The position numbers and the translations under genes were made by a program. From contig JAFDHL010000027.1 of assembly GCA_019308785.1 (NCBI GenBank), positions 1-35,256 of the forward strand: a stretch of DNA of 35,256 nucleotides, given 5' to 3'. Within the stretch, counting starts at the first letter, position 1. Each line of letters starts with the position of its first letter. Of this stretch, positions 9,573-18,821 are shown in pieces. The DNA comes from Deltaproteobacteria bacterium (GTDB taxonomy: Bacteria; Desulfobacterota; DSM-4660; Desulfatiglandales; Desulfatiglandaceae). The notes under the pieces were generated by a model. The model was given only the letters and a program-made list of their open reading frames with translations. It was not told the DNA's origin and did no database searches.

Positions 9573-12254
9573 CTAATGGGCTTCATCCCAGTTCCTACCT
9601 TCCTTAATATCAACCTTTAGCGGCACTTTCAAAGGATAAACCTCTTCCATTTCCTCCTTAATCATAGGCATAACAGCATCCAGTTCTTCCTCGGGCACTT
9701 CAAAAACAAGCTCGTCATGGACCTGAAGGAGCATCTTTGATCCAAGTTTTTCCTCTTTCAAACGATTGTGGATATTGATCATGGCCTTTTTTATCAAATC
9801 CGCTGCTGTGCCCTGGATAGGAGTATTAATAGCCATCCGTTCCGCCTCGGAGCGAATCCTATTGTTGCCGTGCTGAATATCCGGCAGATACCTTCTCCTC
9901 CCAAAAAGCGTTGAAACATACCCTTTTTCCCGCGCCTTTTTAATCGTTTTCTCCCTGTATCTTGCAACACCCTGGTATCTTTCATAATAGGCATCTATGT
10001 AATTCTTTGCTGTCTTATGTTCTATCCCCAACTCCTCGCTAAGCCTTCGAGGGCCCATGCCATAAATGATCCCGAAATTAATAGCCTTTGCAATCCGCCT
10101 CATATCAGGAGATGCCGTCCGGCTATTCTCTCCCAGGATTTCCATGGCAGTACGGGTATGAATATCCTCATCCCGCCTGAATGCTTCCATAAAGGCTTCA
10201 TCCTCAGAATAATGGGCAAATACCCTCAGCTCCACCTGGCTGTAATCAGCAGACACAAGACAGTGTCCCGTTTCTGCCACAAAACCCTTCCTGATCTCAC
10301 GGCCCTCCTCTCCACGAACAGGGATATTTTGAAGATTTGGATCACTGCTGCTAAGTCGTCCTGTGACAGTAACTGTTTGGTTATAGGACGTATGAATCCT
10401 TTCTGTAACCGGATCCACCATCTTTACCAAGGCGTCAAGGTAAGTGGATTTAAGCTTTGAAAGGGTCCTGTATCTCAATATCAGTTTTGGCATTTTATGC
10501 GGAAAGGCACAGAGTTTTTTCAAGACCTTAACATCTGTGGAGTATTTTTTTGTCTTGGCAGTCTTTCTTTGCACCGGAAGCTGGAGCTTTTCAAAAAGCA
10601 CTTCTCCCAACTGCTGTGGAGAATTGATGTTGAATTCCATACCAGCCTCATCGAAGATTCCCCTTTCAACCTCCTTTAACTGCTCGGCAAAACGTGCGGA
10701 CATCCTTTTAAAAAAGCCCGTATCAATCTTAATGCCGGCCATCTCCATATCCATGAGGACCGGTATGAGTTTCATCTCCAGTTCGTAAAAAAGATCCTCG
10801 TTTTTATCTGACCGGAGCTTCATGTCCAGGATCTTCATCAATCTGAAGGTGATATCGGCGTCTTCACAGGAATAGGCCATGGCCCTTTCCACATCTACCT
10901 CTGAAAAACTGCACGCCTTTTTGCCCTTTCCGACTACATCATCATAACTGATCATCTTGTGATTCAGATAATGCTGTGCAAGATAATCGAGATTATGCTG
11001 CCTTAGACCCGGATTGATGACATAGGATGCAATCATGGTGTCAAAGTGGATTCCCTTCAGATCCACCCCATGCCGCTTCAGAACCTCTGCGTCATATTTG
11101 ATATTCTGGCCCACCTTCCTGATCTGTTCGTCTTCCAGTACGCCTTTTAAGATCTCTGCGGCTTCCGACCAGTTTAACTGGGACGGGGCACCTAAATAAA
11201 GGTGAGCAAGGGGCAGATACGTTGCATTTCCCTCATTACAGGAAAAGGAGATACCCACAAGTTTGGCCTCAAGAGGATTCGTGCTGGTGGTCTCAGTGTC
11301 AACGGCAACCATGCCCTTTGACTTTATTTGCCTGACTAAGGCCTGTAACGACTCTCTTGAAAGACACAGGTTGTAATCCTTAGGCCCTTCTTTTCTCGTG
11401 GCAAATTGTTCCCATAAACCTTTAAATTCCTGTTCTCTGAAAATATCAGCCAATTCGTCACCAAGGGGTTCGCCCACCTTTAGCTGATCAATATTGTTGT
11501 CAACAGGTACAAAACGATCAATGGTGACCAGCTTTTTGCTTAAGACGGCATCATCCCTGAATTGCTGAAGATTTTCCTTCAACTTCTTTTTCTTTAACTC
11601 TTCGACATGATCAAACACGCCTTCAAAAGATCCGAATTCCCTGACAAGACCAACGGCCGTCTTTTCCCCCACGCCGGGAACGCCCGGAATGTTGTCCGTA
11701 CTGTCACCGGAAAGGCCCATTACATCTATGAACTTTTCAGGTTCGAGCCCATAGGTCTCTTTGAGAGATGCACGATCAGTGACCGCGTCCTTCATGGTGT
11801 CCCACATGCATACATTGGGTGTGATGAGTTGCCTGAAATCCTTATCCCCGGTCACCATAACGACCCTGAAACCCTTTTCTTCACATGCCCTGGCCAGGGT
11901 CCCGATAATGTCGTCGGCCTCATACCCCTCCTTTTCTATCATTTTTATATTCAGGTTTTTTACGATCGACTTGATGACAGGGATCTGTTCGGCCATATCA
12001 TCCGGCATTGGGGGCCGGTTGGCCTTGTAATCCGGATAAATCTTATGTCTGAATGTGGGACCCCTGGCATCAAAGACGATGGCAAGATACTCCGGTTCCT
12101 TATCCTTAAGAAGCTTGAGGACCATTTTGGTGAAGCCAAAGGAGGCGTTCGTAGGAAAGCCCTTTGAATTGGCAAGGTTCCTTATGGCATGATATGCCCG
12201 GTGGATATATGAACTCCCGTCTATAAGGTAGATTATTTCTTTCTCTTGAGGCAT
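9573..12254 (-). CDS. polA: DNA polymerase I
   Basis: This is a full-length three-domain Pol I of about 893 residues that fills gaps and removes primers in replication and repair. The 5'-nuclease domain (1-290) has GYEADDIIGTLA, TGDKDFRQL and the helix-hairpin-helix GVPGVGEKTA. The 3'-5' exonuclease looks catalytically intact: DTETT (exo I), NIKYDAEVL (exo II) and YSCEDAD (exo III). The polymerase domain has DPNLQNIPVR, motif A ADYSQVELR, motif B RRIAKAINFGIIYG and motif C QVHDELVFEV. The ATG at 12254 is preferred to an in-frame TTG at 12272 because the family starts just before the YLIDGSSY strand. The stop (9573) is preceded by a short 9-bp tandem repeat (ACTTTAGTC) lying downstream of the gene. 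Confidence 0.97.
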   Translation of the reverse strand: MPQEKEIIYLIDGSSYIHRAYHAIRNLANSKGFPTNASFGFTKMVLKLLKDKEPEYLAIVFDARGPTFRHKIYPDYKANRPPMPDDMAEQIPVIKSIVKNLNIKMIEKEGYEADDIIGTLARACEEKGFRVVMVTGDKDFRQLITPNVCMWDTMKDAVTDRASLKETYGLEPEKFIDVMGLSGDSTDNIPGVPGVGEKTAVGLVREFGSFEGVFDHVEELKKKKLKENLQQFRDDAVLSKKLVTIDRFVPVDNNIDQLKVGEPLGDELADIFREQEFKGLWEQFATRKEGPKDYNLCLSRESLQALVRQIKSKGMVAVDTETTSTNPLEAKLVGISFSCNEGNATYLPLAHLYLGAPSQLNWSEAAEILKGVLEDEQIRKVGQNIKYDAEVLKRHGVDLKGIHFDTMIASYVINPGLRQHNLDYLAQHYLNHKMISYDDVVGKGKKACSFSEVDVERAMAYSCEDADITFRLMKILDMKLRSDKNEDLFYELEMKLIPVLMDMEMAGIKIDTGFFKRMSARFAEQLKEVERGIFDEAGMEFNINSPQQLGEVLFEKLQLPVQRKTAKTKKYSTDVKVLKKLCAFPHKMPKLILRYRTLSKLKSTYLDALVKMVDPVTERIHTSYNQTVTVTGRLSSSDPNLQNIPVRGEEGREIRKGFVAETGHCLVSADYSQVELRVFAHYSEDEAFMEAFRRDEDIHTRTAMEILGENSRTASPDMRRIAKAINFGIIYGMGPRRLSEELGIEHKTAKNYIDAYYERYQGVARYREKTIKKAREKGYVSTLFGRRRYLPDIQHGNNRIRSEAERMAINTPIQGTAADLIKKAMINIHNRLKEEKLGSKMLLQVHDELVFEVPEEELDAVMPMIKEEMEEVYPLKVPLKVDIKEGRNWDEAH

Positions 12255-12354
12255 GGCCCCATCATACTTCAACGGATAACAAACCGGAAGAAATATTTAT
12301 GAAAATCCAATTTGCTTGCAAATTATTGGTAGTTGAAATTAATCCAATGAAAAG

Positions 12355-12386
12355 ATAATAGGGGACGTTGTTGACTATGTTGACAA
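12355..12386 (+). repeat. Left terminal inverted repeat of the element
   Basis: This is a 32-base perfect reverse complement of 13426-13457. It starts six bases after the transposase stop codon as read on the minus strand. Its outer end is ATAATAGGGGACG. Confidence 0.85.
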
Positions 12387-12392
12387 ACTCTT

Positions 12393-13358
12393 TCACCGCC
12401 TTTTCAATATTTTTGAAATAGCAGATGTGGACACACCCAGTTGTCGCCCTGTTTCCGCTAATGTCATCCCATATTCCGTAATCAATTGATACGCCAAATC
12501 CGACCTGATTTTTGGTATCTTTCCCCGACGGCTGCCCAACTGCATCTCTTTGAGGTTAATACCTTCTTTTTCAGATACCCCTCTGATTAGCTTTAAAGCC
12601 ATCTTCCTTTGCGTATTTCCTGAATACTGATATTTCATTCTCTCATCAGCTTCTTCAATCAATTTTTCTACAAACTCACCACTGCCCAATATCCTTTCAT
12701 CACTCAAAACCTTCTCATTGCTTCGCCTTAAAGACATTACAGCAGACCATCCACCAAGTGATCGTATTAATCCGCCACCTACCAGTTCCGGCCGCCTTCC
12801 ATCTGATAAACCGTTTTTTACATATTCACGGTAGGCTTTTCTTTCTTCTCGTTTTTTACGACCAAACCAGGATAACACATAATCCACATTCTGCCATTCA
12901 TGCATTCTTCTGCCCATCAATACGCTGTGGCCGCACCAAGGATATCTGTCAAGGCTCGATAGATCTTTAACGATTTTTGCTCTTAAGGGATTGAGATGGA
13001 TGTACCGAACAAGTTCTTGAAAATAGGCATCCTCTTCACACACAATGGATTTGTAGCGGTTTTGAAAAAGATGTCCATGTCGTTTATGGCGGAGGTTATA
13101 GCTTATCGCATACCCACTTAGCAATCTTCTCATATACTTTGAAAGACCAGGAGGACCACTGCGTAAAAGAATATGGGCGTGATTGGACATCAAGGACCAG
13201 GCATAGATTTCGGTTTTTGTATCAGAGGCAAGATCTCCAAGGCGGGTTACAAAATTCTTTCGGTCATATTGATCATCGACTATTTTTCTCTTTTCTATCC
13301 CCCTGATGATAACATGGTGCAGGGTTCCTGGGGCATCCAGCCGGGCTTGGCGGGGCAT
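12393..13358 (-). CDS. REP-associated tyrosine (Y1/IS200-like) transposase with C-terminal helix-turn-helix
   Basis: This 321-residue protein has the RAYT-type N-terminus MPRQARLDAPGTLHHVIIRG, in which the HHVIIRG strand is a family hallmark. The HUH motif is SNHAHILL (HAH, about residue 60). The helix with the candidate catalytic tyrosine is KYMRRLLSGYAISYN, followed by GHLFQNRYKS and YIHLNPLRA, all standard for Y1_Tnp proteins. About residues 240-321 add an accessory domain ending in a helix-turn-helix (TLAETGRQLGVSTSAISKIL), probably a DNA-binding module recognising the element ends. The enzyme would cut and rejoin single-stranded DNA at hairpin-forming sequences. The start is well supported: AGGAG five bases before the ATG at 13358. 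The ORF appears intact, so the element may still be active. Confidence 0.92.
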   Translation of the reverse strand: MPRQARLDAPGTLHHVIIRGIEKRKIVDDQYDRKNFVTRLGDLASDTKTEIYAWSLMSNHAHILLRSGPPGLSKYMRRLLSGYAISYNLRHKRHGHLFQNRYKSIVCEEDAYFQELVRYIHLNPLRAKIVKDLSSLDRYPWCGHSVLMGRRMHEWQNVDYVLSWFGRKKREERKAYREYVKNGLSDGRRPELVGGGLIRSLGGWSAVMSLRRSNEKVLSDERILGSGEFVEKLIEEADERMKYQYSGNTQRKMALKLIRGVSEKEGINLKEMQLGSRRGKIPKIRSDLAYQLITEYGMTLAETGRQLGVSTSAISKILKRR

Positions 13359-13425
13359 AATTACTCCTGATTAATTTCTGTGTATTGTCATTTCCATTAT
13401 TGATATCTCAAACAATTAACATACC

Positions 13426-13457
13426 TTGTCAACATAGTCAACAACGTCCCCTATTAT
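13426..13457 (-). repeat. Right terminal inverted repeat, overlapping the asmA-like 3' end
   Basis: This is the exact reverse complement of 12355-12386. Read on the minus strand it encodes the last residues (NRGRC) and the stop of the AsmA-family ORF. Confidence 0.85.
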
Positions 13458-16400
13458 GCTCCAATTCTTTGAGAAGCCCTTTGACCTTTTCCTCAAGGAC
13501 CTTTGAAGGGCTGCCCTCCTCATCACCGCCCGTAATAATCTCCTTGAGACGAGAGGGCGCAGCAAGTCCTTTCTTAATGGTCTGTACAACAGCGCCCTTA
13601 AGATCGGGGCGGAACTTGGGTGATGAAAAGGTCCCGGTGACCAGAATGGGAACTATGAGTCCAGAACGGATCTTTGCATCCCCCTGCCCCTTGAGGCTTG
13701 CCACGACCTTTGGCTCTATCCTGATGTCCAGGGTCTCCTTTACCAGATCGGCATTCCCCGAAGCCACTACCCTTATCAGGGGAGACATTAAGCTTGTCTC
13801 CTGAATGTTTACTACCCCGTCCGTAATTGTGAAGGGCACCTTAAGCTCGGAGAAGTCTGTTTTCGGCCTCGCCCCTCCCCTCTCGGCAAGACCAAAGGTG
13901 GCCTTTATGTTACGGACCATCCCGGTCAGATCGAACCCCTTTATAGTGCCGTCCTGAAGAAGGAGTTCCCCGCTTCCATTCAGGGTTTGCTTGATCCTAA
14001 CCGGATCATCTCCTGACATCCGCAGGACCATATCTGCCCGTGCAGTCCCTTCCAGGACATCCTTTTTCAACACGTCCCGAAGGAGGGGTCCGATTTGAAC
14101 CTTTTCAGCGTGGAGTTTCAGATTACTTTTCGGCATATCCTGCCGTACGTCAAATATCCCTTTAGCGGATACGACACCTCTGTACATGCTCAAATAGACA
14201 GGAGACAGATGAAAAACCCCTTTTTTCCCGATGACCTTGAGTTTGAGATTCTGAATTCGGGCATTATTGAGCTTGAGTTTCGCCGCCTGCATCGTACCAT
14301 CCAAAGTCATCTTACGGAGCGTGCTGTAATCAGGTTTCTTTTGCCCGGTCGCGGGGGTCTTCCCCTTTCCCCCGGCAACCTTTTTCTCGCCTGGAGGCGG
14401 GAGGTATCGATCCAGGTCGATATTATCAACGTCGAGCTTAAAGGTAACATCAGGTGTGTCAAAATCCTTTGCTTTGACGAAATAACTGAGCCTGGATTTA
14501 TCCACATCCATGGTTCCATCTAAGACCATGGAGTTCTTAAGATCCCCCTTCAGCCTGGCCTTAAGGCCCACCCGGGTTAAAGCCTTGGGATCGGCTGTCC
14601 TAACCGGAAAGGCTTTCCCCATATCGGCAAACAGCCTACGAGGCGAAAATGGTTGTACCTGAAGGGCAATGTCAAACCGCGGCTCATCCCGCCCTACGTC
14701 TATGCTCCCTCTAACAGATACGCCTCCCTCATGCAACTTGAGGCTCAGGGGATTGAACTGAAAGCGGCCATTTCTCCCGGTGACCTTGACATAGACATCA
14801 CGGGCTGCAACCCCTTGTGCTTTAAGCTCTCCCACCCGGATCTTACCGTCTACGATTAGCCGTCGAAGCGGCGCATAATCGGGCTTCTTTTTCCCTGAAC
14901 CGGGACTTCTCCGCTTTTCCCTGGTTCCAATGGCCTTTTTCGGGGTCGATGGTGCCAGATACTGACCCAGGTTGAGCTTATTTACATCAACTCTGAAGGT
15001 GACATCCGGTCTGGTAAGGTCTTTGGCCGTCCCAAAAAATGTCACCCTGGATTCATCCAGATCCAGAGAACCTTCCAATAGACTTATGTTCTGAAGACTC
15101 CCTTTGATTAGGGCCTTAAAGGCCAACCTGTTTAAAACGTTAGGATCGGCCGTGGCCAGGGGAATGCCCGGTTTTAGGTCAGCCAGCAGCTTTCGAGGCG
15201 AAAAAGGTGTCGCATGAATGGCAAGTTCAAACAGGGGCACATCCCGCCGGACATCCAGTGAGCCCTTTGCGGATATAGTGCCCTGATATATCTTAAGACC
15301 AAGGGTATTTAACTGAAAGAGGCCGTTTTTCCCGGTAACATTCACATGAACTTCTTGAACCTTGGCCCCCCGTGCCTTTATTTCTCCTATCCGGATCTTA
15401 CCGTCTATGATCAGCCGTCGAAGCGGCGCGTAATAGATCTTCTTTTTCACTGCTCCCGGCATTTTAGCCTTTACCCTTTCTCCCGTAATCTTCTTCTTTT
15501 CCGGGGGCGGCAGGTATCGATCTAAATCGATCTTGTCAAGATCAAAGTTAAACGCAACGTCGGGCAGATTAAACGCTTTTGCCTTCATAGAAAACGTCAT
15601 TTTGGATCCATCCAGATTCAGGAACCCGTTTGAGAGCGTTACCTGTTTAGAATCCCCCTTGACCTTGGCTTTCAGCGCCAAATCGCTCAAGGCCTTGGAA
15701 TCGGCCGTGACTACCGGAAAGGCCTGACCCAGAGCCGCCATCACCTTTCGGGGTGAAAACGGCGACACCTCCAGGGCCAGGTCAAACTGCTGCCGAGTGG
15801 CCAGGTCCACGATCTTACCCTTCAGGCCTATGTCCAGTTCATTCAGGGCCTTCACCGAAAGGCTAAGGGGAATGGTTCCCTTACCCGGGTCCTTCCCCAC
15901 AGGCCCTATACTCCCCTCTAAGGACAGCGGTTTTTTATCAAGCTGGGCCGAGAGGGCCAAACGGATCGGACGATCCAGGGAGACATCCTGGAGTCGGAGG
16001 TTAAAATCGGAGAGTTCTCTTCGTATCCCTTTGGCGTGATCAATGAACAGGACCGATCCATTTTTTATGGCAAACTCACCCACGGCTAACGACTTAATGG
16101 GAAGTGCAGTGCTGATGCCGCCTTTAGACGCCTTTGTCTCTTCCTTAGGGTGTTTGGGAGGGGCCTTTTTTGACGGCCTTCCCAGATCTTCCCAGTTTCC
16201 CCGACCATGCTTGTCTTTCTCCAGGACAACCCGGGGTCCGTCAAGCACAAACCGCTTCACCTGGATATCCTTGGATATGAGGGGCAGGAGCTTCACCTGG
16301 ACATCAAAGGACTTCACCAATACGAAATTCTTCTCCCTGAAGCCGGGTGGGTTACCCAGACGGAGATCTGACATAGCAACTCCCGCCCATGGAAAAAGCG

Positions 16401-16578
16401 AAAGCTTGATATCCCCCCCTATGGTAAAAGTACGCCCAATCGCCTCAGATACTTTTTTTTCGATCTCGGGCTTGTACGTATTTATGTCCACGAACATTGG
16501 GACGATAAGGAGGGCCGCGATAACCAGTACGACCAGGACCCCCAAGACGATAGATGTCCATTTAATTGCCTTTTTCAT
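13438..16578 (-). CDS. Large AsmA-family protein with three internal repeats, 3' end rewritten by a mobile element
   Basis: This 1046-residue protein has an N-terminal membrane anchor (about residues 8-30) followed by the AsmA signature (VDINTYKPEIEKKVSEAIGRTFTI). The rest would be a periplasmic beta-rich groove. AsmA-like proteins bridge inner and outer membranes and are thought to affect lipid transport. Residues 273 to about 828 are three tandem units of about 185 residues, each with PFSPR(K/R), TADPKAL, LDxDxSR, DLDRYLPPP and PLRRL-DGKIRxGE; these explain the excess over the roughly 620 residues of E. coli AsmA. The conserved C-terminal AsmA region (DPVRIKQTLNGSGELLLQDGT, LMSPLIRVVASG) is present. 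The last residues come from the inverted repeat of the inserted element. GGAG lies seven bases before the ATG. Confidence 0.88.
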   Translation of the reverse strand: MKKAIKWTSIVLGVLVVLVIAALLIVPMFVDINTYKPEIEKKVSEAIGRTFTIGGDIKLSLFPWAGVAMSDLRLGNPPGFREKNFVLVKSFDVQVKLLPLISKDIQVKRFVLDGPRVVLEKDKHGRGNWEDLGRPSKKAPPKHPKEETKASKGGISTALPIKSLAVGEFAIKNGSVLFIDHAKGIRRELSDFNLRLQDVSLDRPIRLALSAQLDKKPLSLEGSIGPVGKDPGKGTIPLSLSVKALNELDIGLKGKIVDLATRQQFDLALEVSPFSPRKVMAALGQAFPVVTADSKALSDLALKAKVKGDSKQVTLSNGFLNLDGSKMTFSMKAKAFNLPDVAFNFDLDKIDLDRYLPPPEKKKITGERVKAKMPGAVKKKIYYAPLRRLIIDGKIRIGEIKARGAKVQEVHVNVTGKNGLFQLNTLGLKIYQGTISAKGSLDVRRDVPLFELAIHATPFSPRKLLADLKPGIPLATADPNVLNRLAFKALIKGSLQNISLLEGSLDLDESRVTFFGTAKDLTRPDVTFRVDVNKLNLGQYLAPSTPKKAIGTREKRRSPGSGKKKPDYAPLRRLIVDGKIRVGELKAQGVAARDVYVKVTGRNGRFQFNPLSLKLHEGGVSVRGSIDVGRDEPRFDIALQVQPFSPRRLFADMGKAFPVRTADPKALTRVGLKARLKGDLKNSMVLDGTMDVDKSRLSYFVKAKDFDTPDVTFKLDVDNIDLDRYLPPPGEKKVAGGKGKTPATGQKKPDYSTLRKMTLDGTMQAAKLKLNNARIQNLKLKVIGKKGVFHLSPVYLSMYRGVVSAKGIFDVRQDMPKSNLKLHAEKVQIGPLLRDVLKKDVLEGTARADMVLRMSGDDPVRIKQTLNGSGELLLQDGTIKGFDLTGMVRNIKATFGLAERGGARPKTDFSELKVPFTITDGVVNIQETSLMSPLIRVVASGNADLVKETLDIRIEPKVVASLKGQGDAKIRSGLIVPILVTGTFSSPKFRPDLKGAVVQTIKKGLAAPSRLKEIITGGDEEGSPSKVLEEKVKGLLKELEHNRGRC
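14095..15762 (-). repeat. Three tandem ~555-bp coding repeats inside the asmA-like gene
   Basis: Three in-frame units encode about 185 residues each, starting at PFSPRKVMAA, PFSPRKLLAD and PFSPRRLFAD. Each ends just before the next PFSPR or before the HAEKV segment. The first two units share the PLRRLI(I/V)DGKIR(I/V)GE block almost exactly; the third is more diverged. The linkers after YLPPP are short, lysine- and proline-rich, and variable. Confidence 0.8.
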
Positions 16579-16801
16579 GGTAAATCTCCATAGTTGCTGG
16601 GGTCATATCTTCATATGTCACTTAATACTCCTTCTTCCAACTTTTATTTGTCAGGCTTTGAATGATAAACAAGATGTGAGTCCAGAGCATAAAGATATAT
16701 AATGTTAACAGAGCCGATATACCGTTGCAACTTTCTTTCAACTCTCAAATTAAAGCAATCAGAAAGGAATTAGGGACAAAAAAACGTGCTTTCGGGTATG
16801 T

Positions 16802-17258
16802 TTGAAGATCGAATTCTTGCGGATGAATATCACCTCGAAATCCCCGGAATCAGGCCATCTTGGAGATTCTAATATGGGTGGTGATTTTGGGGCCGAACTG
16901 GTCAAAGCAGGTTTGAGCCACCTGGTGATCACAGGTAAAAGTCAAAAATCCGTATATCTCCTTATTAAAAATGGCGGGATAGAGATCCGCGATGCTCAAA
17001 GGCTGAAAGGCCTTGATACGGTTGAGACGCAGAAAAAAATTCGTCTCGAGCTGGGGGATGAAAATGTCCAGGTCGCCTGTATCGGTCTTGCCGGAGAGAA
17101 GCTTGTAAGATACGCCGGAATCCGCTCAGGCATGAAAAATTCTGCCGGAAGAACCGGAATGGGAGCTTGTCATGGGTTCTAAAAATCTGAAGGCAGTGGC
17201 CGTCAAGGGAAGCCTGGATATCAGGATTTCAGATCCAGAGAAGTATTTGAAACGGAGA
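16802..17258 (+). pseudogene. Relic of an aldehyde:ferredoxin oxidoreductase (AOR) N-terminal domain
   Basis: Translation gives typical tungsten AOR N-domain sequence: ITSKSPESGHLGDSNMGGDF, LVITGKSQKSVYLLIKNGGI, VQVACIGLAGEKLVRYAGI and NSAGRTGMGA. The frame breaks there: the expected V-M-G-SKNLKAVAVKG continues one frame over from the ATG at 17172. This is explained by one extra T at 17167-17168. The first 60-80 residues normally preceding this region and all sequence after EKYLK are missing; the relic ends where rny ends on the opposite strand. No molybdopterin/tungsten-domain remainder is seen nearby. AORs oxidise aldehydes with ferredoxin; this copy cannot be functional. Confidence 0.85.
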
Positions 17259-18821
17259 TCACTTGGCATATTCCACGGCCCTTGTTTCACGAATTACTAT
17301 CACCTTTATCTGTCCGGGATAGGTCAGTTCCTTTTCTATTTTCTTTGCAATATCCTTGCAAATAATATAAGCCTGATCGTCACCGACAATTTTTCCTTCA
17401 ACCATAATACGAATCTCGCGCCCGGCCTGAATGGCGTAGGACTTATTGACCCCATTAAAAGACATGGCGATCTTCTCCAGCCCTTCCAGCCTTTTCACGT
17501 AAGACTCCAGCATCTCCTGACGTGCTCCCGGCCTTGCACCTGACAAGGTATCTGCTGCCTGAACCACAACGGCCAAAACAGTCTCAGGCTGCACATCCTC
17601 ATGATGAGCCGCAATAGCATGAACGACCTGGCTTGATTCTCCGTATTTTCTTGCAAGATCTGCCCCAATAATCGCATGGGGGCCCTCCACTTCATGGTCT
17701 ACAGCCTTGCCAATATCATGAAGCAATCCGGCCCTCTTTGCCTGTTTCATATTCAAGCCAAGTTCGGCCGCTATCACGCCGCTGATAAAGCTGACTTCCC
17801 TTGAGTGCTGGAGTACGTTTTGGGCATAACTCGAACGGTACTTCAGTCGACCGATGAGCTTGACAAGCTCATGATTAATCCCATGGACCCCGACATCAAA
17901 TGTGGCCTGTTCCCCTGCCTCCTTGATACTCCCTTCGATCTCCTTACCGACCTTTGCTACAATCTCCTCTATCCTGGCAGGATGAATCCTTCCATCATCT
18001 ATTAATCTCTCCAGGGAGATCTTGGCCACTTCTCTCCTTACAGGGTTGAACCCGGATAATATAACGGCCTCCGGGGTGTCATCAATAATCAGATCTATCC
18101 CGGTAGCAGCTTCAATTGCCCGAATGTTCCTTCCTTCCCTTCCAATGATCCTTCCCTTCATCTCATCGTTTGGCAGGTTGACCACAGAAACTGTCTTTTC
18201 CGCCACGTAATCCCCTGAGTATCTCTTTACTGCCAGGGCGAGAATTTCCTGAGCCTTCCGGTCAGCCTCAGCTCTTGCCTCATTTTCAATCCTTCGCATA
18301 ATTTTTGCGGCATCATGCCTTGCCTCTGATTCCATTGATCTGATGAGTAACTGTTTTGCCTCCTCACTGGATATACCGGCCAGGTTCTCCAGTTGCCTTC
18401 TCTGATCCTGAATGAGACGTTCATATTCCTCCTCTTTTCGTCTCAGATCCTTATCAATCCGATCAATAGCCCTTTCTCTTTCACCAATTCTACCTTCCCT
18501 TTTCTCAAGCTGTTCAATTTTCCTGTCTAAATTCTCCTCTTTATGAAACAGACGCTTTTCCTGGACCAACAACTGCTCTTTTTTCTCTTTTGTCTCCTTC
18601 TCAAACTCAACCTTCATCTGGTAGAGCGTATCCTTGGCCTGAAGCGCCGCCTCTTTTTTCACTGTTTTGGCTTCTTTTTGGGCCTCCTCAAGTATTCTCT
18701 TCGAATATTTCTCTATGGAATCAACCCTGCTCTCGACGACCTTCTTGCGTATTAAAAAACCGACTGGAATACCCGCAATTAGGCCTACCATAATAATTCC
18801 AATTATATGAATAGCAGTCAT
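17259..18821 (-). CDS. rny: Ribonuclease Y
   Basis: This 520-residue protein has the full RNase Y architecture. An N-terminal transmembrane helix ([20 protein letters not shown]) is followed by a long coiled coil (about 30-200), a KH domain with [15 protein letters not shown], and an HD domain with [16 protein letters not shown]. The C-terminal [18 protein letters not shown] is standard. It is a membrane-attached endoribonuclease that starts mRNA decay. The ATG at 18821 has AGGAG about 13 bases upstream, a long spacing, but the N-terminal sequence supports the start. It follows zapB-zapA on the same strand after about 420 AT-rich bases. Its 3' end meets the AOR relic head-on. Confidence 0.96.

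Follow-up and report, generated by a model that had tools for sequence, protein, structure and literature searches.

A Y1 transposase gene between long inverted ends in a Desulfatiglandaceae genome, and the recurrence of such elements among its relatives

In a 35,256-nt stretch of DNA from a Desulfatiglandaceae bacterium (assembly GCA_019308785.1, contig JAFDHL010000027.1; hereafter the window), a gene for a Y1 transposase lies between two long inverted repeats. RAYT-like genes placed between long terminal inverted repeats (TIRs) have been named TIRtrons or TIRYTs (Di Nocera 2013, PMC3733652). Does the segment at 12355-13457 move as a unit, and which part of the protein would recognise its ends?

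The two arms, 12355-12386 and 13426-13457, form an inverted pair of 32 nt, 100% complementary, with 1,039 nt separating them. Since nothing else in the 2.2 kb examined exceeded inverted matches of 13 nt at 92%, the 32-nt pair is not a product of chance. The arms enclose a single ORF (12393-13358, minus strand, 321 aa), and GTTGAC occurs twice per end, 9 nt apart. The initial annotation, which described a lone Y1/HUH transposase gene, its product carrying a helix-turn-helix (HTH) at the C-terminus, between exact 32-bp inverted repeats, was borne out. Rfam gave no match in the window. The features are as follows.

12355..12386, plus strand: left terminal inverted repeat, on the 3' side of the gene, 32 nt (in the family, the end corresponds to the 27 nt beginning at 12361; the outer ATAATA is only weakly conserved)
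12361..12367, plus strand: left-end GGGGACG core, near-invariant (family profile)
12370..12375, plus strand: GTTGAC unit 1 of the 9-nt direct repeat, left end (sequence; family periodicity at lags 8-9)
12379..12384, plus strand: GTTGAC unit 2, left end (sequence; family profile)
12393..13358, minus strand: Y1/HUH transposase gene (TIRYT), 321 aa (ORF, profile matches, structure model)
12996..13316, minus strand: Y1_Tnp catalytic domain, residues 15-121 (Pfam; H60, H62 and Y119 invariant in 49 sequences)
12399..12488, minus strand: C-terminal helix-turn-helix, about residues 291-320 (weak profile matches, structure model)
13426..13457, minus strand: right terminal inverted repeat, on the 5' side of the gene, exact inverted copy of the left (inverted-repeat search)
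13445..13451, minus strand: right-end GGGGACG core, near-invariant (inverted-repeat search, family profile)
13437..13442, minus strand: GTTGAC unit 1, right end (sequence; 24-nt pattern placed at 13428-13451)
13428..13433, minus strand: GTTGAC unit 2, right end (sequence; 24-nt pattern)

The transposase and its surroundings

The protein matched Pfam Y1_Tnp with an E-value of 6.8e-12 and 46 bits (cut-off 23). Its score against NCBIfam REP_Tyr_transpos (NF047646) was 61.6 bits, under the curated cut-off of 80. In an alignment of 49 sequences, H60, H62, F98-Q99 and Y119-I-H-L-N-P124 were invariant. The predicted model had a mean pLDDT of 82, with residues about 191-250 poor; its best PDB match was the E. 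coli RAYT 4er8 (E 2.1e-6), followed by the transposases of ISDra2 and IS608. A weak HTH match (Sigma70_r4) covered residues 290-320 of the window protein. HTH_23 matched the C-terminal part of the protein P0001 (E 0.0014) and Bac_DnaA_C matched two relatives in the host genome (E 0.00028 and 0.0014), all under the respective cut-offs.

The host genome (G000; 4.0 Mb, 399 contigs, 95% complete) contained 10 matches to the window protein at E of 0.001 or less. Five host-genome elements passed the later filters, and the end word differed for each. Contigs with 100% identity to named Desulfobacteraceae MAGs are present in some genomes of the same family (for example L125 and L144), which would most likely place the host in this group. 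On contig C131 (L046), two distinct TIRYT genes stand in tandem, with 67% and about 50% identity to the window protein.

The neighbours of the element are polA (9573-12272) on one side and an asmA-like gene (13438-16578) on the other. The asmA-like frame enters the right TIR, which supplies its stop codon TGA (13440-13438); the homologue in genome G008 ends differently (window 13438-13480). The asmA stretch is 92% identical to G008 at the nucleotide level, and polA about 76%. Among 20 loci upstream of polA (L192-L211, several cut by contig ends), rny and polA were no more than about 1 kb apart in nine; in the window, asmA and the TIRtron lie between them (12272-17263). A fragment of an aldehyde ferredoxin oxidoreductase gene (AFOR_N, E 1.3e-38) is located at 16802-17182, between asmA and rny, and in G008 the aligned stretches flanking this site are separated by only about 40 bp.

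The ends in related elements

Two sets of homologues were compared. In the named-genome set, 4 of the 80 loci had too little flank, and 76 were scored: an inverted-repeat score of at least 13 was found in 55 of them, while the best of 20 shuffles attained 13 in 2 of 76. The larger set comprised 194 hits, which gave 179 distinct proteins; for 162 of them the flank on each side was 120 nt or longer. A wider search pointed to at least 564 candidate places. GGGGACG, allowing for one change, was present on both sides in 143 of the 162 eligible elements. The left and right ends agreed in at least 20 of 27 positions in 126 of these 143, compared to 203 of 2,860 mismatched left/right pairings scored by the same best-pair rule. 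In the other 19 elements the motif was absent on one or both sides, and the ends of some (L106, L109, L111) appeared decayed by eye. The comparison shows that, as judged by position-wise agreement, the two ends of one element are far closer to each other than ends of different elements. Element length was nearly constant, with a median of 1,088 bp and a 5-95% range of 1,063-1,139.

Relatives need not have the 32-mer of the window: their ends have GGGGACG in common, and the remainder was element-specific. A profile was made from 130 elements with a left-right match of at least 18 of 27. Positions 2-7 (GGGACG) showed an agreement of at least 0.98 both within and between elements, and position 1 about 0.7. 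At positions 8-27 the agreement was 0.52-0.98 within an element, a range inflated by the choice of the 130 elements on left-right match, and 0.28-0.57 between elements (0.93 at position 12). Agreement dropped from position 28 onward, so the end is about 27 nt long. Outside the GGGG we saw weak A-richness and slight left-right agreement, nothing more; the window's outer ATAATA extends its repeat to 32 nt. As delimited by this profile, the end consists of a common GGGGACG core and a private word of 20 nt that differs from element to element.

The word has internal structure as well. The best 7-nt match at lags 8-9 was 4.72 in the 130 elements, compared to 3.28 in shuffles (z 15.6), and lags 6-7 and 10-11 were under the shuffle level. 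In a first set of 74 elements the value at lag 9 was 0.453, but the control with other elements was also high (0.394). Since the repeat at lags 8-9 is family-wide, the GTTGAC direct repeat, which the initial annotation had placed correctly in each end, is its local form.

Copies of the end occur beyond the element. The pattern GGGGACGTTGTTGAC, with at most two mismatches, was found at 38 places in the host genome, compared to 5 for a reversed-pattern control, and a 24-nt form of the end was found at both element ends and at one further place, on contig C164. The 32-nt repeat is thus not private to the locus 12355-13457. At C164:1854-1949 (L040), a right-end copy of 63 nt at 98% identity directly adjoins a variant end of the same orientation. 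A miniature on contig C10 consists of about 105 nt from one end fused to about 66 nt from the other. Another end-like repeat, CGGGACGTTGTTGACTAGGTTGACAA, is present on contigs C191, C350 and C357 (L043-L045) with a surrounding identity of 94-96% over up to about 120 nt; these copies are perhaps a non-autonomous family. Ends that stand alone in the genome, or are incomplete, would represent by-products or remnants. One-ended transfer, proposed from partial copies extending 44-291 nt inward from one end, was dropped, as two of these copies abut runs of N and one stops at a contig edge.

Could the ends be read as hairpins? In a usual REPtron, they would be REP-like single-strand hairpins with GGGGACG as the guide, recognised as in E. 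coli TnpAREP. The window end can indeed fold into an 8-bp stem with two G.T pairs, in which TTGTTGAC pairs with GTTGACAA. On the left side this fold had a z of -0.44, equalled or bettered by 63 of 200 shuffles, and on the right -1.56 (18 of 200), so that the folding of the window's own end is not convincing. Among the 130 elements, the hairpin energy on both strands equalled that of shuffles (mean z 0.03 and 0.01); the best stem length in the set of 74 was likewise equal to shuffles, and we rejected hairpin ends as a family feature. We found no GTAG or GTGG foot at the ends. In the part of Quentin 2018 (PMC6006769) that treats TnpAY1 subclass 2.1, discussed below, its genes are without REPs. 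The REPtron reading would accommodate the RAYT fold (4er8) and the dispersal of end-like repeats, some of them near each other in opposite orientation; the hairpin results, the missing GTAG and the score below the REP_Tyr_transpos cut-off nevertheless make it unlikely.

A candidate for reading the end word is the HTH. Covariation was scored as normalised mutual information, with 253 columns of the protein alignment set against 19 of the ends. Pairs joining the HTH to end positions 8-15 made up 8 of the top 40; high-ranking residue-end pairs were 320-14, 301-9, 311-10, 313-14, 311-11, 301-10, 300-11 and 316-13. In the null model the ends were shuffled only inside protein clusters, with nine different clusterings. 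The null mean for the top 40 was 3.1-4.7 in five of the nine (P 0.005-0.04) and 7.0-8.2 in the four tightest (P 0.29-0.88), where the HTH excess was not significant. The mean HTH signal at positions 8-15 was above the null in all nine clusterings, with z from 2.3 to 10.8 (2.3-3.5 in the four tightest). In the looser clusterings other blocks, too, had a mean signal higher than the null, which means that these clusterings do not wholly eliminate shared descent.

A three-way rank regression gave coefficients of 0.36 for the HTH, 0.14 for the Y1 domain and 0.06 for the middle part at positions 8-15; at positions 16-27 the values were 0.15, 0.23 and 0.21, the HTH not being the largest, and resampling with only 5 clusters gave wide intervals. 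The division into positions 8-15 and 16-27 was chosen from the look of the ends before the first covariation result and was kept after the result was seen. Reading of positions 8-15 by the C-terminal HTH is therefore suggestive: the proposal in the initial annotation that the HTH may read the ends is favoured by the top-40 pairs in five of the nine clusterings and loses significance in the four tightest.

Recurrence at unrelated sites

A copy in genome G036, 91.6% identical, covers positions 12359-13455 of the window and no flank; the polA gene of G036 aligns separately, about 5 kb off. The same behaviour was seen on a larger scale. When 125 elements having 100 nt or more beyond each end were compared, 41 pairs aligned over 900 bp or more at an identity of 74% or higher. 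Homology stopped close to both ends, no further than 20 nt outside them, in 32 of the 41 pairs, which involve 34 elements. Both flanks were common to one pair only (L107/L108). As to the other eight, in seven the homology ended before it reached one or both of the marked ends, and the eighth pair lay within a single locus. These alignments show the TIR-bounded segment to be the unit that recurs at unrelated sites. Together with the paired ends of the 143 elements, they dispel the concern that homologous transposases might lack flanking inverted ends, and they support the earlier description of a compact single-gene mobile unit.

For example, the element on G000:C391 and an element of G008 are 96% identical, compared to about 76% for the polA regions of the same genomes; recent movement or transfer would be the simplest reading. 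Matches to plasmid records were few (11 of 72,556, all below 60% identity), and viral contigs gave one matching fragment. With respect to target duplication, direct matches of at least 4 nt flanked the elements in 0.10 of own pairings and 0.11 of cross pairings, i.e., none was detected.

Empty sites had been proposed at the outset as a way to define the exact ends. No precise one was found at the five sites followed, namely the window's polA/asmA site, G036, L106, L108 and L304. An extra change is present beside the element at all five, so the exact ends and the target are not readable there. The flanks of the window site are kept in G008 up to 8 and 16 nt from the 32-mers, with asmA and polA on separate G008 contigs. 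In G110 and G114, the junction between a tRNA and an apparent peptide deformylase gene (a reading of the sequence by eye) is without the L108 element and has a different stretch of about 180 bp in its place.

A resident, domesticated gene whose flanking repeats serve as operators for its own HTH, with no mobile unit, would explain the place of the upstream end, about 60 nt ahead of the start codon (median 63 in the larger set), and the HTH-end covariation fits a repressor equally well. It is hard to reconcile, though, with the 32 similar pairs in unrelated flanks whose homology ends at the repeats, with a downstream end that is likewise conserved and with the several divergent homologues per genome (the 10 in G000), and we regard it as very improbable. 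A DDE-type cut-and-paste element carrying a Y1 gene by chance has in its favour the long perfect terminal inverted repeats and is extremely unlikely, as the sole gene encodes a Y1/HUH enzyme in which H60, H62 and Y119 are invariant and there is no target duplication.

Proposed mechanism and comparison with known systems

The best explanation, to which we assign a probability of roughly 0.75, is that the locus is a TIRtron. Such an IS-like element, about 1.1 kb long, has a single gene, for a RAYT-like, HTH-bearing Y1 HUH transposase, and two inverted copies of a 27-nt end. The C-terminal HTH, with other parts of the protein, would bind the end through its tandem repeat, and Y119, by analogy with the family, would nick one strand of single-stranded DNA near GGGGACG. 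The inverted arrangement puts one GGGG-type end on each strand, so that nicks at the two ends would fall on opposite strands. This is the simplest scheme, and it would contrast with the same-strand excision in IS608. Transfer would then proceed by single-strand chemistry, with no target duplication. We hold only tentatively, at somewhat less than even odds, the more specific proposal that the private tandem-repeat word is read as duplex, largely by the C-terminal HTH, and not as a single-strand hairpin, that word and HTH coevolve, and that the HUH domain nicks opposite strands. Such recognition is not described for Y1 HUH transposases in the sections of the TIRtron and TnpAY1 papers dealing with these genes. 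If the HTH does set the end word, the element would represent a small HUH enzyme with modular end recognition; the private end sequence of each element makes the enzyme's end recognition testable.

REPtrons (E. coli TnpAREP, 4er8) share with the window element the fold of the catalytic domain and the inverted repeats flanking the gene. REPs, however, are GTAG-tagged hairpins, while ends of the window type are words built on a tandem repeat and show no excess of hairpins. The window protein, at 321 residues, is about twice as long as E. coli TnpAREP (165). The IS200/IS605 elements (IS608, ISDra2) have the Y1 HUH chemistry in common with it by homology and are not known to make a target duplication, of which there was none in the present elements either. 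Their hairpins are short, subterminal and of the same polarity on one strand, whereas the window element has long inverted ends. The Y motif here is Y---NP in a protein of 321 aa, in place of the Y---Q and short core-only protein of IS200/IS605 (subclass 1.1). Relative to this family the end structure is unusual, as the initial annotation stated; it is not new, given that TIRtrons/TIRYTs were named in 2013 (PMC3733652).

In a literature search, the terms TIRYT and TIRtron were found only in Di Nocera 2013 and Quentin 2018. The window element has what TIRtrons have in common: a RAYT-like Y1 gene (Y1_Tnp at 46 bits, fold match to 4er8), flanked not by REPs but by long terminal inverted repeats in which a GGGG motif occurs, and end-like repeats elsewhere, as in some genomes. 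The motif GGGGWSAS was stated by Di Nocera 2013 for some TIRs only; the first six of its eight letters fit the window end GGGGACGT and the last two do not. The main text of that paper is without the terms Desulf or Geobacter. The element is a further member of the known TIRtron kind, and its architecture was already published.

Quentin 2018 (PMC6006769) assigned 20 of 26 TIRYTs to TnpAY1 subclass 2.1, whose members have an HTH at the C-terminus, and asked for more analysis. The window transposase probably belongs to the same subclass. It shares the C-terminal HTH of Bac_DnaA_C/HTH_23/HTH_28 type (via the sub-cut-off matches), the FQ and Y[IV]HLNP motifs and the lack of REP hairpins; with respect to the subclass motifs Y[IV]HLNP/YIELNP and FQ/W[EQ], YIHLNP and FQ are invariant in the 49 sequences. 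The HUH consensus of the subclass, NHVH or NH[YF]H, is replaced by NHAH (H60 and H62 being invariant), and the membership is graded as probable for this reason.

In its passages on these subclasses, Quentin 2018 questions a role of the HTH in reading the ends and describes the subclasses as without typical IS features; the present data point the opposite way on both. Together, the accounts of Di Nocera 2013 and Quentin 2018 left open the movement of TIRtrons, their status as insertion sequences and the role of the DnaA-like HTH. Movement as a unit, which the passages of Di Nocera 2013 on these elements do not demonstrate, is indicated here, and that question is answered on sequence grounds by the present comparison. 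Set against the passages of these two papers on such elements, three things are added: the survey of the ends, the test for movement as a unit and the covariation analysis.
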